From NCBI GenBank assembly GCA_013112585.1, contig JABFGH010000036.1:1-43632 (forward strand): 43,632 bases of DNA, written 5' to 3'. The DNA is from Ignavibacteriota bacterium (lineage in GTDB: Bacteria; Bacteroidota; Ignavibacteria; Ignavibacteriales; Melioribacteraceae). The notes under the pieces were generated by a model. That model was not told where the DNA came from and ran no database searches. It saw only the letters and a program-made list of their open reading frames with translations. Positions 9,510 to 31,443 of this stretch are shown here, in pieces. Positions within the stretch are counted from its first letter, which is position 1. Each line of letters starts with the position of its first letter. A program made the translations under genes and the position numbers.

Positions 9510-9704
9510 ATGAGAACTACATTAGATATACCTGAAAAACTTATGTTAGAAGCGTTAAGGGTGACCAAAAGTAAAACTAAGACCGAGTTAATAAAACTTG
9601 CTTTGGAAAATATTATTAGAAAAAATAAAATTTCTGATCTAAAAAAATTTAGGGGAAAAGTTGACCTGGATATAAACCTTGACTCAACGAGAAAAAGAAA
9701 ATGA
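9510..9704 (+). CDS. vapB: VapB-type antitoxin
   Basis: A 64-residue antitoxin. The N-terminus MRTTLDIPEKLMLEALRV is a ribbon-helix-helix DNA-binding domain of the kind seen in VapB proteins paired with PIN toxins. The C-terminal tail (about 40-64), rich in Lys and Asp, would be the part that blocks the toxin. GGAG precedes the ATG, the stop overlaps the toxin start by four bases, and a palindrome covers the promoter, so autoregulation is likely. The small size is normal for the family. Confidence 0.85.
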   Translation: MRTTLDIPEKLMLEALRVTKSKTKTELIKLALENIIRKNKISDLKKFRGKVDLDINLDSTRKRK

Positions 9705-10093
9705 AAATTCTTGTAGATAGCTCGGTTTGGATTGATTTTTTTCGCGGCGGAAATTCTTCTAAAGTTTTGGAGGGATATATTGACGACAATTTAATTTGCA
9801 CAAATGATTTGATATTAGCTGAACTAATTCCTCATTTAGTAATGCAAAAGCAGAAGAAATTAATAGCCTTATTAAATTTAATTGAAAAAATTCCAATCAT
9901 AATTAATTGGAGCAGAATTATAGAAAGCCAAACAAAATGTCTTAAAAATGGGATTAATAAAGTTGGTATTCCTGATCTAATAATTTTACAAAATGCTATT
10001 GATAATGAACTTAACTTATTTTCTTTTGATAAACACTTTAAATTGATTAGTAAGTTTCGAAACTCAAAATTAGTTTTAATAAGTCCCAAATAA
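9701..10093 (+). CDS. vapC: VapC-type PIN-domain ribonuclease toxin
   Basis: A 130-residue PIN-domain protein. The acidic residues that hold the metal are present as D6 (ILVDSSVWIDF), E41 (ILAELIPH), D92 (IPDLIILQNA) and D110 (FSFDKHF). VapC toxins cleave RNA, commonly tRNA or rRNA, and are held inactive by VapB; the target here cannot be read. The ATG lies within the last codons of vapB (ATGA overlap), the usual coupling. Nothing suggests inactivation. Confidence 0.87.
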   Translation: MKILVDSSVWIDFFRGGNSSKVLEGYIDDNLICTNDLILAELIPHLVMQKQKKLIALLNLIEKIPIIINWSRIIESQTKCLKNGINKVGIPDLIILQNAIDNELNLFSFDKHFKLISKFRNSKLVLISPK

Positions 10094-10948: not shown

Positions 10949-11788
10949 ATGAAAATAATACTTATTATCCTTAGTACTTTATTTCTATTCAGTTGTGAAA
11001 AATCTACTGAACCGGTTACTACTGATGGAAACGCAAAATTAGTTGGTAAAGTGATTGATATAAACGGCAACCCATTAGACTCAGTGATTGTTGGGTTCAC
11101 GTATCCCAATATTCCCGATAGTATTATTTTTATTGGTGATTCGTTAGTATTAGATATTCCAAGGTCAATTGAGTACCAATCATTTACCGGGAATGATGGG
11201 ATGTTTGAAATTGGCTTTGGATTTGCAATAGAGCCGCCAGTAGACTTTGACAATATGTTCGCCTATAAGCCGGGGCAAGAACTTTGGAGATTTTCATCAA
11301 ACTTGGATTCTGTTTTTCGTGTTCGTCCGGGTGAGGATTCGATAACTGTACAAATGAATATTAATGATTGCTACCAAAAACCGGAGTTTAATGAAATTAC
11401 ACTTTATGACCATTTGCTGATCACATTTCCCAAAAATTATGGATGCTCCGAGGGTTTGTATACATCGGAAGATACACACGGGTTTTTAAAAAATCGTAAA
11501 GATTATGAAGTTACCTTTCATTGGGAACTTGGCATGACTCCTTTTTTCCCAAAAGAATTTGATTACTTACCAACTGCTGAGCAATATGAATATCCAAACA
11601 GAGAAATATTTTTTGTTGATGCTGATAGTGCGGCACTGTATTATTTTCATCCAATAAATAAACGTGGAATTGCACTAATTAAAAATGAAAATAAAACCAA
11701 GTACCGGGAACTGCTCTTTGTTGATTTTAAGATTGAAAGCTTAGACGAAGTCATGCAGATATTAAATACAATTAGATATAAGCATTAG
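10949..11788 (+). CDS. Lipoprotein with a carboxypeptidase-regulatory-like domain
   Basis: A 279-residue lipoprotein. The signal peptide ends in LFLFSC, the lipobox Cys. A beta-sandwich follows, similar to the CarboxypepD_reg fold (about 30-125): KLVGKVIDINGNPLDSVIVGF, then FTGNDGMFEIGF. The remaining 150 residues are not assignable. Such domains often sit on Bacteroidota surface lipoproteins. A GGGAGG site lies upstream of the ATG. The gene converges on the sucrose operon, with only 18 bases between stops and no clear hairpin there, so read-through from either side is possible. Confidence 0.68.
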   Translation: MKIILIILSTLFLFSCEKSTEPVTTDGNAKLVGKVIDINGNPLDSVIVGFTYPNIPDSIIFIGDSLVLDIPRSIEYQSFTGNDGMFEIGFGFAIEPPVDFDNMFAYKPGQELWRFSSNLDSVFRVRPGEDSITVQMNINDCYQKPEFNEITLYDHLLITFPKNYGCSEGLYTSEDTHGFLKNRKDYEVTFHWELGMTPFFPKEFDYLPTAEQYEYPNREIFFVDADSAALYYFHPINKRGIALIKNENKTKYRELLFVDFKIESLDEVMQILNTIRYKH

Positions 11789-11806
11789 AAAATTTAATTC
11801 ATTTTA

Positions 11807-12733
11807 CTATTCGCTGCTTGAATCCTTTTTCCCATACTTCTCAAGTATCTGCAAATCAAAAGGTTTACTCTCCTCACCAAAATAAACTGTTCTATGCGGA
11901 AATGGTATTTCGATATTGTTTTCATCGAAAGCATATTTTACTCTGCGCAAAAATTCTCTGCCAACCGCCCACTGCCTTATTGGGAGGGTTTTTATTCTCC
12001 CTTTTATTACAACAGCAGAATCACCGAATTTATCTACACCAAAAATTTCCGGTTCTTCAAGCATAAGTTTTCCAAATTTCGAATCTTCAAGAAGTTTTTG
12101 ACCGATCTCTTTCATAATATCAATTACTGTATCGGTATCTTCTTTATATGCGACACCAATTTCAAAAATATATGCCGACCATTCCTTGGTTAAATTGCTT
12201 AAAGTATCAATACTTCCATTGGGAAAAATATGAACTACTCCGGCAAGGTCTCTCAGAACAATAGTTCTAAAATTTATTTTTTCAACTAAACCGCCGGTAC
12301 CGTTTATCTGCGCAACATCACCAACCCTTACTTGATTTTCCATTGTGATAAAAATTCCAGATATAAAATCACGCACCAAATTCTGTGCACCAAACCCAAT
12401 AGCTAAACCGACTATACCCGCACCGGCAATTATAGGTCCAATCTCTACGCCAATTTCTCTAAGCACAACTAGGAATGCCGTAAGCCAAAGAGCCAATAGT
12501 GCTGCCTGCTTTAAGAGCCTAACCAAAGTGTTTACCCTTTTTTCCGATTCTGTCGGGGGTTCACCTTCAGCAACGCTTTTTTTAAGAAGCTGTTTTTCTA
12601 ATCTTCTTAAAAAGTTTAACAGCACCTTCATTACAACCCACGCAATCACAAGAATAATAATTATTCTTATAGATGTTTTAATAACTCCCTGCCAATCAAT
12701 TTCACCTATTATTTCATTAACAAATTCTAACAT
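11807..12733 (-). CDS. MscS-family mechanosensitive channel
   Basis: A 308-residue small-conductance mechanosensitive channel. It has three membrane segments (about 18-40, 73-95, 100-130); the third is the pore helix with the Gly/Ala-rich GAGIVGLAIGFGAQNLVRDF motif. The MscS beta domain follows (RVGDVAQINGTGGLVEKINFRTIVLRD, then VHIFPNGSI) and then the C-terminal cage domain. It releases small solutes when turgor rises suddenly. It is the last gene of the minus-strand sucrose operon, 54 bases after sucrose synthase. This suggests that its job includes letting out accumulated sucrose on osmotic downshock; that link is inferred from position. Confidence 0.9.
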   Translation of the reverse strand: MLEFVNEIIGEIDWQGVIKTSIRIIIILVIAWVVMKVLLNFLRRLEKQLLKKSVAEGEPPTESEKRVNTLVRLLKQAALLALWLTAFLVVLREIGVEIGPIIAGAGIVGLAIGFGAQNLVRDFISGIFITMENQVRVGDVAQINGTGGLVEKINFRTIVLRDLAGVVHIFPNGSIDTLSNLTKEWSAYIFEIGVAYKEDTDTVIDIMKEIGQKLLEDSKFGKLMLEEPEIFGVDKFGDSAVVIKGRIKTLPIRQWAVGREFLRRVKYAFDENNIEIPFPHRTVYFGEESKPFDLQILEKYGKKDSSSE

Positions 12734-12787
12734 TATAAATCCTTACATCATCTTTTTCTTATTTATAAAATTTCCAAAAATATATTT

Positions 12788-15175
12788 TTACATGTTATTA
12801 TGTTTTTCCAACAATTTTTCTGCACGAGGCTTAAATAGTAAATGATAAACTATATCAAGATAAGCTTCCATATCTTTCATATCTAAGTCTGTTAAGTATT
12901 TCCAAAATCCGAATATTTTTGAATTTGTTAAAAGTTTGTTTGAATACAACTTCCAATTGTAAGCCTCATTAACTCTCTTAATACTATTTTGCGAAATCTC
13001 TTTCCAATAATTTTCATCTTGATTAAAGCGGGTAACAACATCTAATAATATTTGCTTACTCTCCTCTTTATTTATCGGGTCAATATGAAAACCGCTTACA
13101 CCATTTTGAATTATTTCTAAAGGACCGCCATACTTTGTTGCAATTACAGGTATTCCCGAAATCATAGCTTCGAGAACAGTTAACCCGAATCCCTCAAATA
13201 ATCCCGGTTGAACGAACAATCCTTTTCTTTCAGCAATAATTCTGTAAACTTCCCCAGCATCATTTTTTCTAAATAGTTTTCCAATCCACCTAATTTTATT
13301 ATGAAGTTTAAACTCATCAATCAAACTCCACATGAGATGAATTTGTTCAATCTCTTCCTTGTCACTTGAGTTTGCCGCATCTATTTTTCCTGCAACAATA
13401 AACAAGTTTGCACGCTGCTGAAGTTCTTCCGATTCCCCGAACCATCTTACAAGTGAGGTTAGATTTTTATTTTTATCTAAACGAGCTAATGAAAATATCG
13501 GTACTAGATCAGGATTTTCCAATTCACCGAAAACTTCTTCATCTTCCATATTCTCAAAAAGTAGTTTGGTTAAATATTCCCTGCTCTTTTGATTACGCTG
13601 TTTTGTTTTTGTGTAAGGAAAAAACATTCGCTCATTTACTCCGGGCGAAATTATATTAAATTTAATATTATATAGATCAACACCATTTTCAACACGGTAA
13701 AGCCCCGGTAATGTAAAGTGTTTATGAGTTTCGTATTGACCAACGGAATATTCTGTTCCTGCAATCTCTTGATAAGTAGATGTGATTTGAAAGTTAGATG
13801 AATTCATTGCAATCAAATCGGCAGTAAACTGTGTTGAAAAATTATACTGATCTTCCATATCTTTCCAATATAAATCACTAAACAAATATTTACTTTTTTC
13901 GAGCGCATGTGCAATGCAGCACTGTGTTACATTAAATTTTTTAGAAAGTAAATATGAGACCAAATTACCATCAGAGTAGTTGCCGACTATTAAATCGGGG
14001 TTACCCTTAAACTCGGCTTTCAGTTCCACCTCTGCATCTTCGGCAAATTCTTCAAGGTAGGGCCAAATCTCAAATCGCGATATCCAGTTATCTGTAATCC
14101 TCGGATTGTGAGTTCTAAATGGAACCCGCAGTATCCATGTGTTTTTTGTGTTAACTACTTTTTCTAACCTCTGATTGCATTTAGTGTTGCCTGCATTCGG
14201 TATTAAGCGGGTAAGAATAATTATTTTAGGTAAAATATTTATTCCTGCTTGATTCAAAGAATCGATCAATGTTTTTTCTAATGCTTTAACTTGATCAAGT
14301 ATGTAAACGATTTGTCCGCCGCTATCGGGTAAGCCCAGTACATTTTGCTGAGCAAAATATCCATGCGGACTAACAATTGCGATATTGAATATCATTGGAA
14401 TTTTTGCTAAGAATTCCTTTAATGTAGTATTATCGGGCGAGTGCAGCAAGTTGTCAAGAAGCTGCAAATTCGATTTTATCTCCTTTACATCTTTACCTAA
14501 CCCCTTTTCAAAACCTAAGCTCTGCAGTTCATGTTTTATGTTTTCATATCGTTCTTTCTTATCAAATTTACCTAAAGTGTTAATTGTTTTTTTAATATTA
14601 GTTATAAGATGATCGGGCGATTTTATTCTATCGTTTAAAATTAATTGTTGACCATCATACTTGTGCAGCTTAACATAGTTGAACAAAACTTCTTTCCATT
14701 TATCAATATCATTGAACATTTTGCTTGAAAGAAATTTATTCAAGTATTCTACACCGTCGCCAATGCTCTGATAGTCCCTTACAGAAGGATAGTTTTCGTA
14801 AAAAGGTTTGAAGTTTAACGTTAGAATATCGTCATCAATATCGGGGTTAACAAATTTTTCTTTTGCTATCAAGTATTCTTTAATCGAAATTTTCTCAACC
14901 ACCATTTCTTCAATATTAGCAATGAAAAAACTTGAGTGCCCGATTTTTACTCTTACATCTAAATAAATTGTATGATTGTGAATTATAATTTCCTGCAGCA
15001 GATTTATTACTTCTTCAAGTTCTTCTGATACATTCGGTTCATCATTTTTATAGTTTCTAAAAATTTCACAAGTCTCGCCAATTATTAACAGCTTTTTTTC
15101 CTGCTCAAGTAATGAGTTTAAGAAATCAAAAAATTCAATTTTATTTTTTTCAATATATTCCAATATATCAATCAT
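12788..15175 (-). CDS. Sucrose synthase
   Basis: A 795-residue GT-B glycosyltransferase of family GT4 that catalyses the reversible reaction sucrose + UDP (or ADP) = NDP-glucose + fructose in the cytoplasm. The first 250 residues are the sucrose-synthase-specific N-terminal region. The catalytic part begins near FNIAIVSPHGYFAQQNVLG (about 265) with LPDSGGQIVYILDQ. The E-x7-E motif of GT4 enzymes is E661/E669 in EGFGLTVLEAM. The length matches plant and cyanobacterial enzymes (about 800). The ATG is 14 bases after the synthase/phosphatase gene and has a GAAAGG ribosome site. With fructokinase in the same operon, it gives the cell a route to recover sucrose as UDP-glucose and fructose 6-phosphate. 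Confidence 0.9.
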   Translation of the reverse strand: MIDILEYIEKNKIEFFDFLNSLLEQEKKLLIIGETCEIFRNYKNDEPNVSEELEEVINLLQEIIIHNHTIYLDVRVKIGHSSFFIANIEEMVVEKISIKEYLIAKEKFVNPDIDDDILTLNFKPFYENYPSVRDYQSIGDGVEYLNKFLSSKMFNDIDKWKEVLFNYVKLHKYDGQQLILNDRIKSPDHLITNIKKTINTLGKFDKKERYENIKHELQSLGFEKGLGKDVKEIKSNLQLLDNLLHSPDNTTLKEFLAKIPMIFNIAIVSPHGYFAQQNVLGLPDSGGQIVYILDQVKALEKTLIDSLNQAGINILPKIIILTRLIPNAGNTKCNQRLEKVVNTKNTWILRVPFRTHNPRITDNWISRFEIWPYLEEFAEDAEVELKAEFKGNPDLIVGNYSDGNLVSYLLSKKFNVTQCCIAHALEKSKYLFSDLYWKDMEDQYNFSTQFTADLIAMNSSNFQITSTYQEIAGTEYSVGQYETHKHFTLPGLYRVENGVDLYNIKFNIISPGVNERMFFPYTKTKQRNQKSREYLTKLLFENMEDEEVFGELENPDLVPIFSLARLDKNKNLTSLVRWFGESEELQQRANLFIVAGKIDAANSSDKEEIEQIHLMWSLIDEFKLHNKIRWIGKLFRKNDAGEVYRIIAERKGLFVQPGLFEGFGLTVLEAMISGIPVIATKYGGPLEIIQNGVSGFHIDPINKEESKQILLDVVTRFNQDENYWKEISQNSIKRVNEAYNWKLYSNKLLTNSKIFGFWKYLTDLDMKDMEAYLDIVYHLLFKPRAEKLLEKHNNM

Positions 15176-15189
15176 GTTTACAGCCTTTC

Positions 15190-17349
15190 TTATTTCTTAA
15201 AAAATTTATAATGATCTAAACCTTCTATAATACCATTTGCAAACTTACTATCGGCAAAATAAATTCGCCGCCTTCCTTTAAGTTTATCTAATTCCTTTGT
15301 ATGATTTGCAACAACTACACCAAATAATTCTCCGGTAAGCATGTCTTCATCATTACCCGAATCACCTCCAACAAGAATTGAATCTAACGGAATGTTCCAG
15401 CGATAGCTTAGATAACGTATTGCCCTGCCCTTGCTTGCTCTGAAGGGAAGTAAATCAATATATGTATCGTGACTAACAATAAGGTTAGTTTTAATTTTAT
15501 TGCTTCTCAGCAATTCCCGCGCTTCTTCAATTGCACCGATTTCTCCAATTAAATTATAGCTTATTTTAAAGTCACGCTGATTTTCCGGCACCTGCATTTC
15601 TATTCCCTCAACGCTGCTAAGCAGTTCTTTTATTTTCTTCGGTTTCCATGCATTTTTTATATGTGCCGCCCAGCTTGTTGAATAAATATATTCTTCACCG
15701 CTTCTGTAATAAATTTCGGACCCAACGGATGAAATTATTACATCGGGCATTATTAAATCAATTTCGGTTAAAATGCTTATTGCTGAATCGATCGTTCTTC
15801 CGGTTGCAACACCAAAGCCTATGCTGCTATCCATATTATCCAATATATTTTTTAATTTTAATATAGCTTCTTCATCTCCGGTAATGGTTTCATCAATATC
15901 AAGTATTATAAGTTTTTTGAATTTCAAAAATTTCCTTCCTGTCTCTATAAAAGTTCTCGGTTCTGTTTTTGTTTTATCAATAATTCCAATTGCGTTTTCC
16001 AAATATTTACTCGTATGTGCATCCCATGAATAAAATTCTTTAACATGGTCTATACCGCTTTGGGAATAACTGCTCCATAAATCTTTATCCTTTAAAATTT
16101 TATTTACGGCATCACTAATATTTTTTGTTTCTAAAACATCAACAAGAATTCCATTATGAAGATTACCTATAATATCTCTCGGTCCGCCGTCATCAGTAGT
16201 TACAACCGGCAGTCCGGCAGATGCCGCTTCAATTAATGTAATGCCGAAATTTTCAGTAAAAGCACTATTTACAAATACGCCTTGTGTCTCTGCGGCAATT
16301 CTGTATAGTTCCGGTACTTCATCTTCAGAATTTTTTTTGGGTATTGCCATTTTACCGTATAGGTTATACTTATCCAACTGCAGCAGCATATCTGTTAAAA
16401 CTTCTCTTTCTAATTCCGGCATTTCAGTTATATCTTTTCTGATACCGGCATAAATAGCGAGGTTAGCTTTTTCCTGCAGTTCCTTATCTTCGCCGTATGC
16501 TTTTATTAATCCCGATATATTTTTAATCTTGGTAGGGCGGCATAGGGTAAGAATTAAAGGTTTATGCATGTTTGTAAAAAACCGCCAAAGTTCTTCGGTT
16601 AAACTTGTTCTAATTTCTTTTTCTTCATCATCCCATTCGCGCTTTATATTATAGGGATAAAACTTTTCGAGTGATAGTCCCGGCGGAATAACCATAAATT
16701 TTGCAGCCGAATAATTTTCATACTTGCCGTACTGTTTTTTTATTTCATCCTTTGTACTGGTTATTACCCTGTCGGCATAAAAAATAGAATCCTCTTCTGC
16801 TTGAATTCTTTTTGACATGTTGAATCTTTTTTCAATTTCCTCTTCAGCATAATCATGAGCAATTAGTGATTCTTTTTTTAGAATACCGAGCGAATGTCCT
16901 GTATGAATGAACGGCAGTCCAAAAAATCTTGTTAGCTGCGTACAAACATATCCGGCATCGGCATAGTGGCTATGAATTAAATCGGGCAAACGATTTTGAG
17001 CTTTGAGGTATTTAATAGTTTTGTCAACAAATTCCTCAAGGTGATCCCAGAGCAATTCTTTACGCATATACTTTTTGCCGCCGCATCTAATTCTAACGAT
17101 GCTTAGCTTATCATTAACCTCCTCATACCGCTGTGCATAATCTTTTGATACTGACTTATCTTCTAAATACCTGGTAAGGATTTCTACTTTTTCCACCTTA
17201 GGGCTGCGGCTAAGATTTTCGGCAAATTCTAATACATACTTGGTTTGTCCGCCGGTATCAGAATCTCTTCCTAATTCTAAATCTCTTCCTCGCAATAAGC
17301 CGTGAATATTATATAATTGAATATACAAACCTTTATTAGTGCTGCTCAT
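15190..17349 (-). CDS. Bifunctional sucrose-phosphate synthase/sucrose-phosphatase
   Basis: A 719-residue fusion. Residues about 5-450 are a GT4 sucrose-phosphate synthase (GRDSDTGGQTKYVLEFAENL near the start; E-x7-E motif E366/E374 in ENFGITLIEAAS) that joins UDP-glucose and fructose 6-phosphate. Residues about 478-719 are a HAD-fold sucrose-phosphatase: DIDET with nucleophile D484 and general acid D486, then VATGRT, then GGDSGNDEDML for Mg2+. Both steps of sucrose synthesis are thus in one chain. The HAD part keeps all catalytic motifs, unlike many plant SPS enzymes, where this domain is inactive. The start overlaps the end of the fructokinase gene by 14 bases. Confidence 0.9.
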   Translation of the reverse strand: MSSTNKGLYIQLYNIHGLLRGRDLELGRDSDTGGQTKYVLEFAENLSRSPKVEKVEILTRYLEDKSVSKDYAQRYEEVNDKLSIVRIRCGGKKYMRKELLWDHLEEFVDKTIKYLKAQNRLPDLIHSHYADAGYVCTQLTRFFGLPFIHTGHSLGILKKESLIAHDYAEEEIEKRFNMSKRIQAEEDSIFYADRVITSTKDEIKKQYGKYENYSAAKFMVIPPGLSLEKFYPYNIKREWDDEEKEIRTSLTEELWRFFTNMHKPLILTLCRPTKIKNISGLIKAYGEDKELQEKANLAIYAGIRKDITEMPELEREVLTDMLLQLDKYNLYGKMAIPKKNSEDEVPELYRIAAETQGVFVNSAFTENFGITLIEAASAGLPVVTTDDGGPRDIIGNLHNGILVDVLETKNISDAVNKILKDKDLWSSYSQSGIDHVKEFYSWDAHTSKYLENAIGIIDKTKTEPRTFIETGRKFLKFKKLIILDIDETITGDEEAILKLKNILDNMDSSIGFGVATGRTIDSAISILTEIDLIMPDVIISSVGSEIYYRSGEEYIYSTSWAAHIKNAWKPKKIKELLSSVEGIEMQVPENQRDFKISYNLIGEIGAIEEARELLRSNKIKTNLIVSHDTYIDLLPFRASKGRAIRYLSYRWNIPLDSILVGGDSGNDEDMLTGELFGVVVANHTKELDKLKGRRRIYFADSKFANGIIEGLDHYKFFKK

Positions 17350-18241
17350 CTAATATTTTATCCCCGTATATTTTATAAATTTCTTCATCTTCTATTAAAG
17401 CGCCTTTTCGTTTGATTACTTCTGATGCAAATGATACAGCCAGAAAGTTTATTTTTTCAATATCAATATTGTGCAAGATTCCCAAAGCAAGTATTGCTGA
17501 ATAGGCGTCGCCTGCTCCTACGGTATCGACTACATTAACAGCCGGCGATTTACAAAAGCTGGTTCCGGAATTTGAAAAAAGTTCAGCACCTTCTTCCCCT
17601 TTTGTAACGCTTACAAATTCAATTTTATATTTCTCTTTGATTTTTTTTACTGTTTTATAGTACCCTTCATTTTCATCGAAAAATAGTTCACTAATTAGTT
17701 TTAGTTCATCTTCATTTACTTTTAATATATTGCATGCAGTAAGTGATCTTTCAATAATATCTTTGCTATAAAAATTCTGCCTAATATTTATATCAAACAT
17801 ACTTTGGTATGATCCATTTGCTAAGTTTTGTATTGTCGTTCTCGATACTTTATTTCGCTGAGATAGTGATCCGAAGTAAAGTAATTTAGACTCGGCTATT
17901 ATTTCATCCTCTTCTACTTTAGATAAATTTATATAGTCATAAGCCCTGTTATCAAAAATAGTAAAGTCAGGTATTTTATTTTCATTCAATTCAATAAGAA
18001 CTTTTCCCGTTTCGATATCACTTTTAATATCAACATATTTAGTGGAGATTTTACTGCTCTTCAAAAATTGCAATATCTCCTTGCCTTCTTCATCATCTCC
18101 AATTGCGGTAATAAAATTTGTGTTTCCGGCAATTTTATTTATATGATAAATAAAATTAAATGGTGCACCGCCAATTTGTTTTTCACCTTCATAAACGTCA
18201 AAAAGTATTTCCCCAATCGAAGTTATAATTTTTTTATTCAT
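17336..18241 (-). CDS. PfkB-family fructokinase
   Basis: A 301-residue ribokinase-fold sugar kinase. The N-terminal motif is IGGAPFNFIYHINKI (the sugar-binding GG), and the C-terminal PfkB signature is DTVGAGDAYSAILAL with catalytic base D245 after the GAG anion hole. The neighbours make fructose the likely substrate: it would phosphorylate the fructose freed by sucrose synthase, giving fructose 6-phosphate that the sucrose-phosphate synthase can use again. It is the first gene of the operon; the promoter should lie in 18242-18350 but I see no convincing boxes there. Confidence in the kinase family is high, in the substrate moderate. Confidence 0.82.
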   Translation of the reverse strand: MNKKIITSIGEILFDVYEGEKQIGGAPFNFIYHINKIAGNTNFITAIGDDEEGKEILQFLKSSKISTKYVDIKSDIETGKVLIELNENKIPDFTIFDNRAYDYINLSKVEEDEIIAESKLLYFGSLSQRNKVSRTTIQNLANGSYQSMFDINIRQNFYSKDIIERSLTACNILKVNEDELKLISELFFDENEGYYKTVKKIKEKYKIEFVSVTKGEEGAELFSNSGTSFCKSPAVNVVDTVGAGDAYSAILALGILHNIDIEKINFLAVSFASEVIKRKGALIEDEEIYKIYGDKILDEQH

Positions 18242-18353
18242 AATTTATCTTAGTAAGAGTATCTTATTTAATAAGAAAAACATCGGTAAAAAGCAAAAAA
18301 TTCCACAAAAAAAGCACTTTTTTCAATCATCAGATTTTCATTTTCTATAATAA

Positions 18354-18557
18354 TTTTTAGGAGCCGTAGCGGATGCATTAAATGCGGCAGCTACAAATGT
18401 GTTAATAACAGTTTATGATATACTTGGAAATGAAATTACTTTATTAGTAAATGAACAAAAACCTTCCGGGACTTACGAAGTTGTTTGGGATGCAGGAAAT
18501 CAGCCGAGCGGAATATACTTTTATAAAATTGAGACAGATTATTTTTATCGTTTGTAA
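18354..18557 (+). pseudogene. Orphan T9SS type A C-terminal sorting domain fragment
   Basis: After two in-frame stops (18348-18353) a frame of 67 codons ends at TAA 18555-18557 and reads as the last two thirds of a T9SS sorting domain: ITVYDILGNEITLLVNEQKP, SGTYEVVWDAG, PSGIYFYKIETDYF. It matches the C-terminus of the 41715-43511 protein segment for segment. The NYPNPFNP start of the domain, the rest of the protein and a start codon are missing. It is the stump of a deleted exported protein in the 382 bases between the sucrose operon and sdaA; the remainder of that gap holds nothing I recognise. Confidence 0.75.
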
Positions 18558-18623
18558 ATATTTATATTTCAGAAACAAATACTGATTTATAAAAATAATC
18601 TCATTTAGAAAAGATATAACAAA

Positions 18624-20030
18624 ATGAAAATAAATAAAACCGGCGACTTAGAACAACCAATGTTTATAAGTGTTTTAGAACTTTTTAAAATCGGCATTGG
18701 TCCATCAAGCTCGCATACAATGGGACCCATGACTGCCGCAGCAGATTTTTTAAACTTGGTTAGTAAATTTTTATCCCGCAGCAAGCATAAATCCGGTCTG
18801 CGAATTCAATGTATCTTAAAAGGGTCTTTAGCCTTCACCGGAAAAGGACATGCCTCGGATAAAGCTGTGGTACTTGGGTTAAACGGCTATTCACCCAAAA
18901 GTTTAATTGAAGAGGATACCAGTTTATTGATTAAAACTCTTTGGAATAATAAATCAATAAAACTGAATGGGACTGAAGAGATTGAATTTTCACCTGAAGC
19001 GGATATAATTTTTGACAACAATGATCCTTTACCTGAGCACCCGAATGGAATGATTTTTAACTTGATTGATAATTCAGGTAAGATTCTGTTATCTCAAATT
19101 TACTTTTCAATAGGCGGCGGATTTATAAACACACAAGCTGAAATTCAAAACTTAAAAGCGCCCATTAAAATGATACCAGATAGTTCCCGCCCCTACGCAT
19201 TCAGTTCGGCTGAATCAATGCTGCAAATGTCTGTCGAAAGCGGTTTATCAATTGCCGAAATGAAAAGATTGAACGAACTTGTTTTTATATCGGAGAATGA
19301 ACTTAACAACCGGCTTGATGAAATTTGGAATGCCATGCGGATATGTCTTGAAAGAGGATTAAGTACAGATGGAATTTTGCCCGGCGGATTAAACATCAAC
19401 CGACGAGCGCATAAAATTTTTAATCAGCTTAACCTGCACACAAATATTACCGATTGGCTAAGTGTTTATGCAATGGCTGTTAATGAAGAAAACTCTGCCG
19501 GGCACATGGTTGTTACTGCTCCAACAAACGGCGCTGCCGGAGTTATACCTGCTGTTTTATATTATTTTATTAATCACCGAAACGGAACAAAAGAACAAAT
19601 TAGGGAGTTCCTTTTAACTGCCTCGGCAATAGGCGGATTAATAAAACACCGAAGCTCAATTTCAGGTGCGGAAGTGGGATGCCAGGGCGAAGTCGGTTCG
19701 GCGTCTTCAATGGCGGCTGCCGGGTTATGTGCATTAAAAGGCGGCACACCACATCAAGTAGAAAACGCAGCGGAGATTGCCCTTGAACATCATCTTGGAA
19801 TGACATGCGATCCGATTGGCGGACTTGTACAAATACCCTGCATTGAACGGAATGCATTCGGGGCGGTTAAAGCTTACACAGCAGCCTCACTTGCCTTGCG
19901 GGGTGACGGGCAGCAATTTATTCCGCTGGATAAATGCATTGCCGCAATGAAAGAGACCGGTCTGGCGATGTCTCACAAATATAAAGAAACTTCTCTCGGC
20001 GGACTTGCGGTAAGCATTACTGAGTGTTAG
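18624..20030 (+). CDS. sdaA: L-serine dehydratase (L-serine ammonia-lyase), single-chain, iron-sulfur
   Basis: This enzyme converts L-serine to pyruvate and ammonia with a [4Fe-4S] cluster. The signature [15 protein letters not shown] opens the protein. The cluster cysteines are C353, C395 and C406 ([22 protein letters not shown]), with the C-x41-C-x10-C spacing of the Legionella type II enzyme. The last residue is Cys468, which matches the 'tail-in-mouth' cysteine that closes the active site in that enzyme. A second ATG at 18660 (MFISVLELF) gives 456 residues, closer to relatives, and may be the true start. The last 256 bases are repeated at 22130-22385, so the 3' end has probably been exchanged by an integrating element. 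Confidence 0.92.
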
Positions 20031-20144: not shown

Positions 20145-20885
20145 ATGATTGTGACCACACTCCAAAATTACTTTAATAAAAAAAATGTCTTCACTAGAGA
20201 TGAACTATTTCATTTCTACCTTTTAAGTGAACAAGAACTCAACAAAAATACTTTTGCTTGGCGAATTTATAATCTAAAAAGAAAAGGAATTATTAAACAA
20301 GTTGGGCGAGGATTATATTCATTACAATCTAAAAGCAATTACTCGCTTGAGTTAAGTGCTGATTCTACTAAAATTGCACAAAGTATATCAAAAACTTTTA
20401 CTGAAATAAATTTTTGTATTTCTGATTCAACATGGATAAACGAATTTACCAGCCATCAATATTCAAGTAATTTTACAATTGTCGAAGTTGAAAAGGATTT
20501 TTTAGAATCAGTTTTTTTTAATCTCAAAGAAACTACTAAAAATGTTTTTCTTAAACCGAACGAGACCGAACTTGACAGATATATTTCTGATTTGGAAAGT
20601 GCAATCATCTTAATTCCATTTATAACCAGAACACCTATTCGGGAAATGGAGAATCAGAATTTTAACACTCCAACGATAGAAAAACTATTGGTGGACATAT
20701 ACATTAAAAATAGTCCCTATTTTTTTCTTACAAATTCTGAAATAGAAACTATTATTCAAAATGCGTTTAGAAAATACATTATAAATCAAACGACATTACT
20801 TGCCTATGCTGAAAGACGTGGAAAGAAGAATGAGATTAAAAATTTTCTTATTAAGAAAAAGCTCATTGAGGTGATGAGTGATTAA
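20145..20885 (+). CDS. AbiEi-like antitoxin (type IV toxin-antitoxin)
   Basis: A 246-residue protein with an N-terminal winged-helix region (about 1-70: FTRDELFHFYLLSEQ, then WRIYNLKRKGIIKQVGRGLYSL), the domain layout of AbiEi-family regulators and antitoxins. The C-terminal half (about 75-246) is the antitoxin part, without a motif that I can name. In the AbiE system this protein represses the operon and counteracts the nucleotidyltransferase toxin. It overlaps the toxin gene by eight bases and has a Bacteroidota-type promoter with inverted repeats upstream. The pair fills almost the whole insert between the two sdaA 3' copies. Confidence 0.78.
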   Translation: MIVTTLQNYFNKKNVFTRDELFHFYLLSEQELNKNTFAWRIYNLKRKGIIKQVGRGLYSLQSKSNYSLELSADSTKIAQSISKTFTEINFCISDSTWINEFTSHQYSSNFTIVEVEKDFLESVFFNLKETTKNVFLKPNETELDRYISDLESAIILIPFITRTPIREMENQNFNTPTIEKLLVDIYIKNSPYFFLTNSEIETIIQNAFRKYIINQTTLLAYAERRGKKNEIKNFLIKKKLIEVMSD

Positions 20886-21951
20886 AAAACATTGTTTCTC
20901 TGAGGAATGGATTAACGGGTTTCGTAGGGAAAAGAAATATTCAAAAATAAACCCGCCTATTTTGGAAAAGATGATAAATGCTCTTTCTTTGCTTCAGCAT
21001 TTGGTAAAAAATGATTTGAAATTTGTATTCAAAGGCGGAACAAGTTTAATTCTCTTACTTGATAATTCAAGTAGATTCTCGGTTGATATTGACATTTTAA
21101 CCACACAAAATAGGGAAACAATAGAACCAATTTTTAATAAAATAATTGATAATTCACATTTCGCTAAGTGGGAACTCGATGAACGCCGAAGCTATAAATC
21201 CGGTATTCCAAAAGCTCATTATGAATTTCAATTCAACTCGATTTTCAGCAAAAAAGCAAATTCTATTTTGTTGGATATTATATTTGAGGAGCCAAAATAT
21301 CCAAAAGTTCAAACACTGCCAATAAAAGCAAAATGGATTGATACAGATGAAGAATTATCTGCTAACATTCCAACTGTTGAATCTATTGTTGGAGATAAAC
21401 TAACAGCTTTTGCTCCGAATACAACCGGAATATTATTTGGAAGCGGAAAAGAATTGGAAATAATAAAACAACTTTATGATTTAGGAAATCTTTTTGAAAA
21501 GATTGATGACCTTGAAATAGTTAATAAAAGCTTTCTAATATTCGCTAATCAAGAAATAGAATACCGAGAGTTAAATATTACTCCGGAAGATATTCTCGAT
21601 GATATTCTAAAAACTGCTAAACTTATTTCACTTAGAGAAAAGAACAAATCAGAAGATGAGAAAAGTCAGTTCAAAGAAATTCAAATGGGAATAAGAGGTT
21701 TTGCAAATTTTTTAATTTCCGGAAATTTTAGAATTGATGATGCAATAAACGCTTCAGCAAGAGTTGCCTATTTAGCAAGTAGATTAAAACATAAAGACTT
21801 TTCTCCGCATGAAACATTTACGAACCAAGATATATCAAAAATAAATTTAACACACCCTGATTGGAATTATTTAAATAAACTAAAAAAATTACCCGATAAA
21901 AGTGGATTCTTTTATTGGCAAAAAACCATTGAAATTTTAGAACAAAAATGA
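20878..21951 (+). CDS. AbiEii-like nucleotidyltransferase toxin
   Basis: A 357-residue protein of the AbiEii/MNT nucleotidyltransferase family. The catalytic motifs are KGGTSLIL (GGTS at 53-56) and D-x-D at D70/D72 (RFSVDIDIL). VESIVGDKLTAFAP is the conserved downstream motif. AbiEii relatives stop growth by transferring nucleotides, with tRNA 3' ends shown as targets for some members, and give phage resistance. The gene starts at GTG 20878 inside the antitoxin gene, an eight-base overlap. All catalytic residues are present, so it should be active. Confidence 0.83.
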   Translation: MIKKHCFSEEWINGFRREKKYSKINPPILEKMINALSLLQHLVKNDLKFVFKGGTSLILLLDNSSRFSVDIDILTTQNRETIEPIFNKIIDNSHFAKWELDERRSYKSGIPKAHYEFQFNSIFSKKANSILLDIIFEEPKYPKVQTLPIKAKWIDTDEELSANIPTVESIVGDKLTAFAPNTTGILFGSGKELEIIKQLYDLGNLFEKIDDLEIVNKSFLIFANQEIEYRELNITPEDILDDILKTAKLISLREKNKSEDEKSQFKEIQMGIRGFANFLISGNFRIDDAINASARVAYLASRLKHKDFSPHETFTNQDISKINLTHPDWNYLNKLKKLPDKSGFFYWQKTIEILEQK

Positions 21952-23730: not shown

Positions 23731-25167
23731 ATGAATCAAAAAATCTTCATTTCATACTCTTGGACGACACCAGAACACGAAGAATGGGTTCTAAGTCTTG
23801 CGAAAAGACTTATTTCTGACGGAATCGATGTTGTACTCGACAAATGGGATTTAAAAGAAGGTCATGACTTATATGACTTTATGGAATCGATGGTGAAATC
23901 ACCAGAGATTGATAAGGTATTAATTATTCTAGACAAGAAATACACAGAAAGAGCAGATTCCAGAAAAGGAGGTGTAGGAACCGAAACCCAGATAATCAGC
24001 CCCAAAATTTATAAAGATGTATCGCAGGAGAAATTTGTTCCAATTATCCGAGAGCGCAACGAAGAAGGTGAAGCATTTATTCCAACGTATCTTGATGGTC
24101 GTGTTTACATAGATTTATCAAATGATGAGCAGTTCGAAGAGAATTACGAAAGTCTTTTAAGAAATATCTATGGTCGTCCTTCCTTTAGCAAACCTAAAAT
24201 AGGTAAAGCTCCAAGCTATTTATTCGAAGATAGTCCTCTTAATTTTAAAACAACTCACATTTTACGCGGATTCGAAAAACAATTGCTGAATAAACCCGAT
24301 AGGGCAAACTCTCTAATTAGAGACTTTCTAGAAGACTTCAAAGAGAACCTAAAGGATTTCAGTATAACGTTTGAATCTAGAGACCAGATAGAAGTTGGCA
24401 AACAAATCTGTGAAAACATAAATCAGTATACACCCTTAAGAGACGATTTTATTCAGTTCTTCGATATTTTGACTAACTCGAATGTTGATTTTGACATTGA
24501 CATAATAATCCAATTCTTTGAAGAACTACCCTTGTTCTTTTCCCCTCTTGACAATAGAAGTAGTTGGGGCACATTTGAATTTGACAACTTCAAATTTATC
24601 GTCCATGAACTACTCTTGTACTTGATTGCAGTTGGACTTAAAAACAATAATTATCAATTCATTGAAGAAATCCTTTATTCAAGCTACTTCACGAAAGACA
24701 AATACAACGGTAATAATGAAGCTAAAAGATTTGATGTGTTTTACGGTCATACAGACATAATCAAGCCGTACTACAATCAAACCCATTCTCAGAACTTTTT
24801 CAGTGCAATGGCTGACTTTATCATTAAACGTATTCCTGACTTTTTAACTAAAAGAATTTTAGTTCAGGCTGATTTGCTTTGCTATCATGTTTCTGAATTA
24901 AATAATCTTCGATGGTTTCCGATGACCTATGTATATGACACTTCAGGTCGTTACGAACTTTTTTATAGACTAGAATCGAAAAGACATTTTGAAAAAGTTA
25001 AGATTCTATTTGGTGTGGACACGGTAGAACAACTAAAAGATAGGTTGAATGAACTTGAAGAAAAAGACAAAGGGAATAACCATAGAGTAGCATATTCAGG
25101 ATCTTTTGATTCTGTGATACCTCTCTATAGATTAATTGACAAGGAGAAATTAGGGACAAAAAGATAA
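23731..25167 (+). CDS. TIR/SEFIR-domain protein, probable defence effector
   Basis: A 478-residue protein. Residues 1-150 form a TIR/SEFIR domain: KIFISYSWTTPEHEEWVLSL, then VVLDKWDLKEGHDLYDFMES (E52 is the candidate catalytic Glu if it is an NADase), then KGGVGTETQIISP. Residues about 160-478 are a mostly helical region of unknown family, rich in aromatic and acidic residues, that could sense the trigger or oligomerise. Bacterial TIR proteins commonly deplete NAD+ or make signal molecules on phage infection. There is no partner gene of the Thoeris ThsA kind beside it. The gene is bounded on both sides by mutually complementary boxes of attC-like sites, so it appears to be a single-gene mobile cassette. 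Confidence 0.75.
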   Translation: MNQKIFISYSWTTPEHEEWVLSLAKRLISDGIDVVLDKWDLKEGHDLYDFMESMVKSPEIDKVLIILDKKYTERADSRKGGVGTETQIISPKIYKDVSQEKFVPIIRERNEEGEAFIPTYLDGRVYIDLSNDEQFEENYESLLRNIYGRPSFSKPKIGKAPSYLFEDSPLNFKTTHILRGFEKQLLNKPDRANSLIRDFLEDFKENLKDFSITFESRDQIEVGKQICENINQYTPLRDDFIQFFDILTNSNVDFDIDIIIQFFEELPLFFSPLDNRSSWGTFEFDNFKFIVHELLLYLIAVGLKNNNYQFIEEILYSSYFTKDKYNGNNEAKRFDVFYGHTDIIKPYYNQTHSQNFFSAMADFIIKRIPDFLTKRILVQADLLCYHVSELNNLRWFPMTYVYDTSGRYELFYRLESKRHFEKVKILFGVDTVEQLKDRLNELEEKDKGNNHRVAYSGSFDSVIPLYRLIDKEKLGTKR

Positions 25168-25601: not shown

Positions 25602-26591
25602 ATGGAAGAAAATAAATCTCAAATAGTCATGTATCAAACTTCTGATGGACTAACAAAAATTGATGTTCGTTTAGAAAACGAAACTGTTTGGCTTACACAA
25701 GAGCAAATTGCACAACTTTTTGGCAAAGCCAAATCAACAATAAACGAGCATATAAAAAATGTTTTCAAAGAAGGTGAACTCGTAGAAAGCGAAGTTTCAC
25801 AGAAATTCGGAATTTCCGAATTTCAGCAAAAAGCACCAATTCATTATAATCTTGATGTTATTATTTCAGTTGGCTATCGAGTAAAATCTCCACAAGGTAC
25901 ACAATTTCGTATTTGGGCAACAAAACGCATACACGAATACATCGTTAAAGGTTTTACTATGGACGATGAACGCTTGAAACAACTCGGAGCACGTTCACGA
26001 TATTTTGAAGAACTTTTACAACGCATCAGAGACATACGAAGTAGTGAAAGAAATTTCTACCAGAAAGTAACAGATATATATGCCACAAGTATTGATTACA
26101 AAAAGGATGATGAGCAAACGAAACTATTTTTTGCTACTGTTCAAAATAAAATGCACTATGCTGTTCACGGGTTGACTGCAGCAGAAATGATTAAAAACAG
26201 AGTTGATGCATCCAAACCATTTCTTGGATTAACCAGCTTCAAAGGAAATTACATCACACAAAAAGATGTTGGGATTGCAAAAAACTATCTTTCAGAGGAT
26301 GAGCTTAAACAACTTAACTTAATTGTTACTCTATATCTTGATTTTGCTGAGTTACAGGCTACAAATGGACGATTAATGAAAATGAATGACTGGATTCAGA
26401 AATTAGATGACTTTCTCAAAATTAGTGAAAAAAAGTTATTGAAAAATGTGGGAACTGTAAGTCATAACCAAGCTATTGAAAAAGCAAATAATGAATACCA
26501 AAAATATAGAGAAACCGAGGATAAAAAATACATTTCGGACTTTGACAGAGAAATGAAAAAGTTAATAAAGGAAAATAAGAAGAAAAAGTAA
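25602..26591 (+). CDS. RhuM-family protein
   Basis: A 329-residue protein of the 'virulence RhuM' family. The N-terminal part is the typical DNA-binding-like domain (VRLENETVWLTQEQIAQLFG, then STINEHIKNVFKEGEL, then HYNLDVIISVGYRVKS, then FRIWATKRIHEYIVKGF). The central and C-terminal helical region (about 130-329) contains RSSERNFYQKVTDIYATSIDY. Relatives are carried on pathogenicity islands and near defence or toxin-antitoxin genes; the biochemical role is unknown. It appears complete, has the same orientation as the TIR gene and is followed immediately by an attC-like hairpin, consistent with a mobile cassette. Confidence 0.85.
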   Translation: MEENKSQIVMYQTSDGLTKIDVRLENETVWLTQEQIAQLFGKAKSTINEHIKNVFKEGELVESEVSQKFGISEFQQKAPIHYNLDVIISVGYRVKSPQGTQFRIWATKRIHEYIVKGFTMDDERLKQLGARSRYFEELLQRIRDIRSSERNFYQKVTDIYATSIDYKKDDEQTKLFFATVQNKMHYAVHGLTAAEMIKNRVDASKPFLGLTSFKGNYITQKDVGIAKNYLSEDELKQLNLIVTLYLDFAELQATNGRLMKMNDWIQKLDDFLKISEKKLLKNVGTVSHNQAIEKANNEYQKYRETEDKKYISDFDREMKKLIKENKKKK

Positions 26592-29803: not shown

Positions 29804-30148
29804 ATGATGAATACTTCCGACATTAGTATTAAAAGTGATGCAGCAATTCTTAAGAACATTGGCGAATTTATTAGGCATCATCGTCTAAGTCAAAATAAAA
29901 CTCAAAACAAGCTTGCCGAAGAAGCAGGCATCAACCGAACTACTTTGGTTGAATTTGAAAAAGGCAAACGCTCAAATACAATTACACTTATTCAATTACT
30001 TCGCGCGCTTGATAAACTATACGTTCTCGAAAACTTTGAAATTAAAGAACAAATTAGCCCGTTAAAATTGGCAAAGATCGAAAAGAAAAAAAGAAAACGA
30101 GCCTCCCGTGTTAGTGAAAAGAATGAACTTTACAATTCCGAGTGGTAA
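29804..30148 (+). CDS. hipB: HipB-like XRE-family antitoxin/regulator
   Basis: A 114-residue protein with an XRE helix-turn-helix at about 15-70 (IGEFIRHHRLSQNKTQNKLA, then EEAGINRTTLVEFEKGKRS). A short basic C-terminal tail (KIEKKKRKRASRV) follows. In HipBA modules this protein binds the kinase and the operator DNA. The stop codon overlaps the first ATG of the kinase gene by one base (TAATG), the usual coupling. There are two adjacent ATGs at the start; the first is given. Confidence 0.83.
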   Translation: MMNTSDISIKSDAAILKNIGEFIRHHRLSQNKTQNKLAEEAGINRTTLVEFEKGKRSNTITLIQLLRALDKLYVLENFEIKEQISPLKLAKIEKKKRKRASRVSEKNELYNSEW

Positions 30149-31443
30149 TGATAACTGCGGCGGAAATTAAAATATGGAATAAACCGGTCGGTGCAATTGC
30201 GTGGGATTCAACAAGCGAGATCGGCAGTTTTGAATTCTATCCTGAGTTTGAGCAGCATAATTGGAATTTAGCACCAATCAAGATGCCGATTAAAAATTCA
30301 GCAGGAAAAGTATTTTCATTTCCTGAACTACGAGGTACATCAACATTTAAAGGGCTGCCTGGATTAGTTGCAGATTTGCTGCCGGATAAATACGGCAATG
30401 CACTAATAAACACTTGGCTTACAAGACAGGGAAGACCAACAAACAGTTTAAATTCTGTTGAATTGCTTTGCTTTATTGGCATTCGCGGAATGGGTGCCAT
30501 AGAAGTAGAACCTGCTTTTCCAAAATCTGCTGCTAAATCAACCAATATCGAAATTGATAGTTTAATAAATGTCGCGAATAAAATACTTTCAGCAAGAAAT
30601 AATTTTTCTACAAATGTTGCCGGCAATGAAGAAAAGGCTTTGATAGATATTCTTAAAGTAGGAACATCAGCAGGCGGTGCCAGGGCAAAGGCAGTTATTG
30701 CCTACAATACAAAAACCGGTGAGGTAAGAAGCGGACAGACTAAAGTGCCAAAAGGATTTTCCCATTGGCTTATCAAATTTGACGGAGTAAGAGACAGTCA
30801 GTTTGGATCTTCCAGTGGTTACGGGCGGGTTGAAATGGCATATCACAAAATGGCAGTGGATGCCGGTATTGAAATGACCGAATGCAGATTGCTTGAAGAA
30901 AATAACCGTGCACATTTTATGACTCGGAGATTTGACCGTACTCCCGATAATGATAAAATTCATTTACAAAGTTTTTGCGCAATGCAGCATTATGATTTTA
31001 ATGAAGTTAATTTTTACAGTTACGAACAGCTTTTCGAAACAATGAGGATTTTGCTCCTCCCATATCCTCAAGCAGATCAGCTCTATAGAAGAATGGTGTT
31101 TAATGTAATGGCAAAAAATTGTGATGACCATACTAAAAATTTTGCATTCATGATGGATAAATCAAGTAAGTGGAGCCTCTCCCCCGCTTTTGATGTTTGC
31201 CATGCATACCGTCCTGGTAGTGAGTGGGTTAGTCAGCATGCATTAAGTGTTAACGGTAAAAGGAAAAATATAACAAAGGATGATTTGCTGGAAGTAGCGA
31301 TTCAAATGAACATCAAAAAACCAAAAATAATTATTGAGCAAATTTTTGATGTTGTTAGCAATTGGAAAGAATACGCTAAAGATTTTGATGTTGAATCAAA
31401 ATTAAAAAATGCAATATGGAAAACCTTTGAACTGAAATACTAA
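30148..31443 (+). CDS. hipA: HipA-like Ser/Thr kinase toxin
   Basis: A protein of 431 residues from the ATG at 30148. The N-terminal HipA_N domain (VGAIAWDSTSEIGSFEF, then LPGLVADLLPDKYGNALI) is followed by the kinase core. The ATP-binding loop is VGTSAGGARAKAVIAY. The catalytic loop is VFNVMAKNCDDHTKNFAFMM, with the Asp-Asp-His-x-Lys-Asn pattern of HipA, and LSPAFDV carries the metal-binding Asp. E. coli HipA phosphorylates glutamyl-tRNA synthetase and induces dormancy; the target here is unknown. All key residues are present. A GTG at 30142 would add two residues inside hipB and is not preferred. A strong hairpin follows the gene. Confidence 0.85.
   Translation: MITAAEIKIWNKPVGAIAWDSTSEIGSFEFYPEFEQHNWNLAPIKMPIKNSAGKVFSFPELRGTSTFKGLPGLVADLLPDKYGNALINTWLTRQGRPTNSLNSVELLCFIGIRGMGAIEVEPAFPKSAAKSTNIEIDSLINVANKILSARNNFSTNVAGNEEKALIDILKVGTSAGGARAKAVIAYNTKTGEVRSGQTKVPKGFSHWLIKFDGVRDSQFGSSSGYGRVEMAYHKMAVDAGIEMTECRLLEENNRAHFMTRRFDRTPDNDKIHLQSFCAMQHYDFNEVNFYSYEQLFETMRILLLPYPQADQLYRRMVFNVMAKNCDDHTKNFAFMMDKSSKWSLSPAFDVCHAYRPGSEWVSQHALSVNGKRKNITKDDLLEVAIQMNIKKPKIIIEQIFDVVSNWKEYAKDFDVESKLKNAIWKTFELKY

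Follow-up and report, generated by a model that had tools for sequence, protein, structure and literature searches.

The stretch of DNA analysed here, referred to as the window, comprises 43,632 nucleotides (nt) of contig JABFGH010000036.1 in assembly GCA_013112585.1, derived from an Ignavibacteriota bacterium (Ignavibacteriales; Melioribacteraceae). The source genome (G000) amounts to 4.94 Mb over 77 contigs and belongs to the same family as Melioribacter roseus (G007). On its minus strand, from position 18241 down to 11807, the window harbors four genes. The first (17336..18241) encodes a PfkB-family sugar kinase of 301 amino acids (aa), probably a fructokinase (FRK), and the second (15190..17349) a bimodular sucrose-phosphate synthase/sucrose-phosphate phosphatase (SPS/SPP) of 719 aa. 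These are followed by a gene for a sucrose synthase (SuSy) of 795 aa with SUS_N, EPBD and GT-B domains (12788..15175) and, in last position, by a gene for an MscS-type mechanosensitive channel of 308 aa (11807..12733). FRK and SPS/SPP overlap by 14 bases, SPS/SPP and SuSy are separated by 14 bases, and a gap of 54 bases (12734..12787, minus strand) lies between SuSy and MscS. An earlier note on this DNA, made from the sequence alone, had described four tightly packed genes, which is accurate with respect to position and the nearly gapless arrangement. The locus as a whole is mostly ordinary, and its new part is the co-directional channel gene behind the sucrose operon, found in one lineage, together with two differently built co-directional cases in other genomes.

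The enzymes were assigned by protein families, structures and motifs. SuSy matches TIGR02470 over its full length with 1055 bits (cut-off 810), contains the N-terminal SUS_N/EPBD part and the GT-B pair according to Pfam, and matches the solved sucrose synthase 4rbn (E 2e-233). SPS and SPP are encoded in a single frame matching TIGR02472 with 592 bits (cut-off 576) and TIGR02471 with 268 bits (cut-off 210), in addition to S6PP. The sequences EGFGLTVLE and ARLDKNKN in SuSy, ENFGITLIE in SPS, and DIDET and GDSGND in SPP were found, all of which we take to be key functional motifs. The kinase matches PF00294 (PfkB) with 154 bits (cut-off 25.8) and stays under every listed NCBIfam cut-off, the best being fructokinase PRK09434 with 96 of 450 bits. 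Its nearest solved structure is 2qhp, entitled Fructokinase (E 8e-48), and because of this structure, the PfkB superfamily match and the gene context it is probably a fructokinase. The names given previously hold for SuSy and SPS/SPP, which pass their cut-offs and carry the motifs; for the kinase the name holds at the level of PfkB, the cut-off of the fructokinase equivalog being missed. A passage of PMC10465243 names E675, E683, R580 and K585 as conserved in plant SuSy and attributes the nucleotide preference of N. europaea SuSy to R636 and A642. In the alignment with 4rbn, the SuSy of the window carries Leu and Ala at the two nucleotide-preference positions, in contrast to Gln and Asn in the plant enzyme, from which we infer that it is likely of the bacterial type preferring ADP. 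SPS/SPP would form sucrose from NDP-glucose and fructose-6-phosphate, SuSy would cleave sucrose to NDP-glucose and fructose, and FRK would re-phosphorylate the fructose. Such a cycle of sucrose synthesis, cleavage and fructose rescue is strongly supported by the families and motifs, in agreement with the earlier proposal that the first three genes make and recycle sucrose.

To place the operon among its relatives, 164 genomes of the order as well as 391 genomes drawn from the class and 395 drawn from the phylum were searched for SuSy at a threshold of E 1e-150. SuSy is present in 27 of the 164 order genomes (26 above the family cut-off), in 19 of the 391 class genomes and in 11 of the 395 phylum genomes, all 11 lying within Ignavibacteriales. 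The 27 genomes of the order and G112 form a pooled set of 28 SuSy-positive genomes. The earlier note's statement that plants and cyanobacteria are the main known sources of sucrose synthase is outdated in view of the 27 order genomes, the published enzymes of nonphotosynthetic bacteria and the SuSy of M. roseus, which appears as a named sequence in a part of PMC10465243. A literature search yielded no publication joining an “Ignavibacter...” word with “sucrose synthase”.

The order FRK > SPS/SPP > SuSy was observed in 21 of the 28 genomes. As judged from mechanically set starts of the open reading frames (ORFs), the genes of the triad mostly overlap or are at most about 20 bases apart, with the widest gap being 212 bases (G716). 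G013 shows the order SPS > SuSy > FRK, the triads of G729, G743 and G754 are cut by contig ends, and in G344, G720 and G728 no FRK is located beside SPS, its place before SPS being taken by a gene of another family. This gene precedes SPS directly in G344 (L055) and G728 (L119) and one reversed ORF away in G720 (L118); the L118 member, which was read, belongs to the phosphorylase superfamily (PF01048). Contig G754:C193 (L230) reads as a palindrome in which FRK-SPS faces SPS-FRK and both halves score equally; it was probably created by the assembly. SPS and SuSy occur together in 25 of the 164 order genomes, with 27 being positive for SuSy and 28 for SPS. FRK-SPS/SPP-SuSy is an ordinary operon among SuSy-bearing Ignavibacteriales. 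In a combined SuSy and SPS tree of the 25 genomes, among them G112, in which both proteins are nearly complete, the families separate almost cleanly with the exception of G054, which suggests that the triad was inherited mainly vertically. Furthermore, FRKs from SuSy-negative genomes interleave with those from SuSy-positive ones. This pattern suits a repeated loss of the SPS-SuSy pair, with gain as the alternative, and some SuSy-negative labels are effects of assembly, as contigs of G753 and G717 end in an apparent SuSy start and one of G733 ends inside SPS.

The fourth gene has a different background. Its product matches PF21088 (TM2/3), PF00924 (beta) and PF21082 (C-terminal), each above the Pfam cut-off, and has hydrophobic segments compatible with three helices; with 196 versus 500 bits it stays under the cut-off of the NCBIfam MscS equivalog NF047601. 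The closest solved channels are 3t9n (E 7e-46) and 9go3 (E 7e-37), of which we take the former (also 3udc) to be TtMscS and the latter (also 7a46) to be a YbiO-type channel. YbiO-type chains measure 749-765 aa and possess a long N-terminal part, unlike the 308-aa protein of the window. Elsewhere in the 164 order genomes, the counterpart that matches this channel best scores E 2e-26 at 33% identity, and no close homologue was found in the 27 other SuSy-positive genomes (26 of the order and G112). In the 395 phylum genomes, matches from outside the order reach 53% identity (E 5e-99) in G163, which belongs to another family of the same class, and 47-50% in G062, G692 and G535. A conserved MscS-sucrose operon containing the channel of the window was rejected because this channel is without a close homologue in the order.

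Channel phylogenies were computed as quick trees with SH-aLRT support only, containing a subset of the MscS genes of the order, among them those that score best against the channel of the window. In the tree of 85 channels, the window's channel joins all 18 outside sequences (14 from the phylum draw and four from plasmids) with a starred support of 98, apart from all included order channels, and is closest to G163 and G062 (98, starred). A smaller tree of 78 rows with 11 outside sequences again grouped it with the outside channels (99, starred); six long-branched rows are excluded from both. A first tree of 73 rows, containing no outside sequences, had set it on a long branch beside a weak MscS-like gene of G360 and four order channels, at an unstarred fork of 87 which was flagged as long branches meeting, and the channel was left unplaced. 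The weak match within the order and the kinship to outside channels indicate that the channel is probably a lineage-specific acquisition. A gain by transfer is likely, the alternative being loss in all sampled relatives. The GC content of MscS, 36.7% as against 30.5-35.4% for the other three genes, is not decisive on origin.

MscS genes were sought in all 28 SuSy-positive genomes and are present in 27, the exception being G743, which is 66% complete. Gene neighbourhoods could be evaluated in 23 readable clusters, whereas G289, G716, G754, G743 and G729 were left out, since a contig end interrupts the operon or closely borders it. The term “readable” is used leniently, as G019 offers no more than about 1.2 kb of downstream sequence and the channel of G720 runs into a contig end. 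Counting the window's own, 10 of the 23 clusters have some MscS gene at most 10 kb from SuSy, compared with 0.77 expected in a model of random placement at about 0.9 genes per kb. A directly adjacent channel in the same direction occurs in three clusters (expected 0.03), namely behind SuSy in the window and before FRK in G031 and G112; the three channels occupy two positions and belong to two clades. A convergent channel downstream is found in G055 (with small ORFs between), G056, G707, G344, G720 and G728, and G360 contains a fragment of a 350-aa channel, assigned by profile, at a contig end about 6 kb from the operon. In addition, G360 carries a weak MscS-like gene on the operon strand (L057:8252-9073; PF05552, and PF00924 with 24 bits), located about 0.8 kb past SuSy beyond one reversed ORF. 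One cyanobacterial SuSy was obtained from a plasmid collection; its gene table, which is incomplete, lists no channel closer than 10 kb, and the excerpts of PMC6753628 and PMC9361551 describe no MscS gene inside a sucrose operon. The survey of SuSy neighbourhoods, which the earlier note had proposed as a check, thus gave a divided answer: the MscS of the window recurs in no other SuSy-positive genome, but in nine of the 22 other readable clusters an MscS gene lies no further than 10 kb away. Almost all of these genes come from a different clade, and the majority are convergent, their location probably being inherited. The linkage counts are not decisive because the linked set was compiled by hand, the cases of family f3 probably share descent and the expectation stems from random placement. 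Linkage statistics as functional proof were set aside, with the f3 cases probably representing one event by descent.

Apart from the channel of the window and the weak gene of G360, all linked channels form one clade of about 350 aa. This clade is present in 64 of the 164 order genomes, comprising 20 of the 27 SuSy-positive and 44 of the 137 SuSy-negative ones (Fisher p 7e-5, uncorrected for phylogeny), and is missing from the genome of the window. Twenty-six of the 44 SuSy-negative loci, several of them on short contigs, were inspected; neither SPS nor SuSy adjoins the channel in any of them, and in seven FRK is convergent to it. FRK faces the 350-aa channel, with no SPS-SuSy between and no SuSy match in the genome, in G053 (L210), G057 (L211), G703 (L223), G704 (L222), G708 (L208), G709 (L209) and G710 (L220). 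A loss of the sucrose pair with retention of the kinase is possible in these seven. Within f3, the 350-aa channel runs in the same direction as adjoining histidine-type genes in both SuSy-positive (G055, G707) and SuSy-negative genomes (G053, G057, G704), the latter three having a thioesterase gene in between; both family names were taken from one member each. In G286, histidine-type genes adjoin SuSy and the 350-aa channel is missing, and G344, G720 and G728 have different flanking genes, with the convergent order alone in common. The case for an inherited position is strongest in genus g52: there the channel has histidine-type neighbours whether or not the sucrose genes are present. As the 350-aa channel also occurs in the absence of the sucrose genes, an inherited position explains the f3 linkage better than a module does, and six or seven of the ten linked cases are probably one inherited arrangement.

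These data raise the question whether the window itself continues an old neighbourhood, in which a 350-aa channel stood beside FRK and was later replaced nearby by the present one. The convergent channel behind SuSy in six f3 genomes would fit, as would the seven SuSy-negative genomes retaining FRK and channel face to face and the histidine-type and thioesterase genes that come next in several genomes of both kinds. So would the presence of the 350-aa channel in nine of the 13 SuSy-positive genomes of the window's family, at distances of 11 kb in G048 and 28 kb in G009; the four lacking it are the window's genome and G029, G743 and G754, the last three being assemblies of many contigs with a completeness of 82, 66 and 93%, respectively. 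Against this, the window's channel is co-directional and of a different clade, of its closest relatives by SuSy, G013 lacks an adjoining channel and G031 carries one upstream, and G029, G286 and G054 have neither a 350-aa channel nor a substitute in the cluster. We regard such a replacement as quite improbable.

Another explanation is that the channel gene is a mere neighbour, brought to the same strand by chance or with a mobile stretch and having no role in sucrose physiology. This would agree with the lack of a close homologue elsewhere in the order, with the positional appearance of the f3 linkage of another channel, and with several toxin-antitoxin or defence-like genes in the window as a possible sign of gene traffic. 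Around eight outside relatives of the channel, tblastn found zero homologues of FRK, SPS or SuSy, the contig of G163 being just 4.5 kb long. On the other hand, three of 23 clusters with adjacent co-directional channels, in two positions and from two clades, contrast with about 0.03 expected, and the gap between SuSy and MscS is short and contains neither a terminator-like site nor a stable fold. We consider a role as mere neighbour somewhat unlikely, though less so than the replacement of an older channel.

The reading we favour, with fair but not high confidence, is that of an osmolyte operon whose enzymes have been supplemented by a hypo-osmotic safety valve. In the lineage of the window, the usual triad would have gained at its 3' end an MscS gene belonging to a clade from outside the order. 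Sucrose would act as a compatible solute, and the channel, presumably co-transcribed with the enzymes under osmotic induction, would be an unselective valve present whenever sucrose is and able to let it pass. Position and strand make it plausible that the channel is a valve made alongside the osmolyte, and ectoine clusters provide a precedent. Self-containment of the module and release through the channel, both proposed in the earlier note, would likewise be inferences. Sections of PMC6753628 and PMC5924519 describe mechanosensitive channels as being of low specificity, so that sucrose would be let out together with solutes in general. Several results weigh against this reading. The arrangement with the window's channel occurs in one of the 23 readable clusters, and eight of its relatives outside the order were seen away from sucrose genes, as described above. 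Moreover, the gap of 54 bases exceeds those within the triad of the window, a promoter scan gave 33 sites versus 32.6 in shuffled sequences and hence no excess, and a PfkB kinase of N. europaea almost halved at high salt according to a part of PMC6284046.

The osmolyte role of sucrose is supported by analogy with N. europaea (in part of PMC6284046) and with cyanobacterial sucrose (in part of PMC6753628). Alternatively, SuSy could mainly deliver NDP-glucose for glycogen or other polysaccharides, sucrose being a carbon intermediate. Cyanobacterial SuSy appears to be primarily cleaving in a passage of PMC6753628, and FRK is kept in seven SuSy-negative genomes; yet SPS/SPP and SuSy co-occur almost strictly, and in N. 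europaea SuSy was 2.7 times more abundant at 30 mS/cm, as given in a part of PMC6284046. A mainly metabolic role appears improbable to us. It is likewise unlikely, if marginally less so, that the sucrose operons of the class repeatedly took in MscS genes because selection favours producing the channel along with the osmolyte, which would result in an ectoine-like module of synthesis, recycling and release with channels possibly tuned to sucrose.

The surroundings of the operon were also inspected. The upstream intergenic region (18242..18623) is the likeliest site of the operon promoter. It holds an open stretch on the plus strand (about 18354-18557) with no preceding gene, perhaps a remnant, which we take to resemble the end portion of a secretion sorting tail of the Bacteroidota type. 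Rfam gave zero matches in 11000-19500, and leader folds likewise yielded nothing. The toxin-antitoxin or defence-like genes around the operon encode a PIN-domain protein (9701-10093), a DUF6577/AbiEi-like and AbiEii pair (20145-21951), a SEFIR/TIR-domain protein (23731-25167), a RhuM-family protein (25602-26591) and a HipA-like protein (30142-31443).

If the channel is co-expressed with the enzymes, the link between osmolyte synthesis and a pressure-release channel would extend from ectoine to sucrose, and the locus would offer a compact cassette for asking whether valves scale with the osmolyte pool. If it is not, the survey provides an example of strong-looking linkage arising from inherited position, in which, within one family, the neighbouring channel persists in genomes lacking the sucrose genes. 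Ectoine biosynthetic clusters with MscS channels are reportedly the subject of Czech et al. 2022. Likewise, compatible-solute genes and MscS share a cluster there, and the window shows the corresponding co-directional, tight spacing of 54 bases. The solute is a different one, and among the sucrose operons surveyed the link to any single channel does not appear to persist. For ectoine clusters, co-localised MscS genes are also reported in a part of PMC13342039. A section of PMC6284046 assigns two sucrose-production enzymes of N. europaea, SuSy and a PfkB kinase, to one operon. The operon spsA-sppA-frkA-amsA of Synechococcus PCC 7002, as presented in an excerpt of PMC11046441, also unites sucrose synthesis and recovery, with amylosucrase in place of sucrose synthase and no mention of a channel in that excerpt. 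A close counterpart is M. roseus, which has the same enzymes in the same tight order and no MscS within 10 kb, whereas the window adds a channel gene as the fourth, co-directional member.

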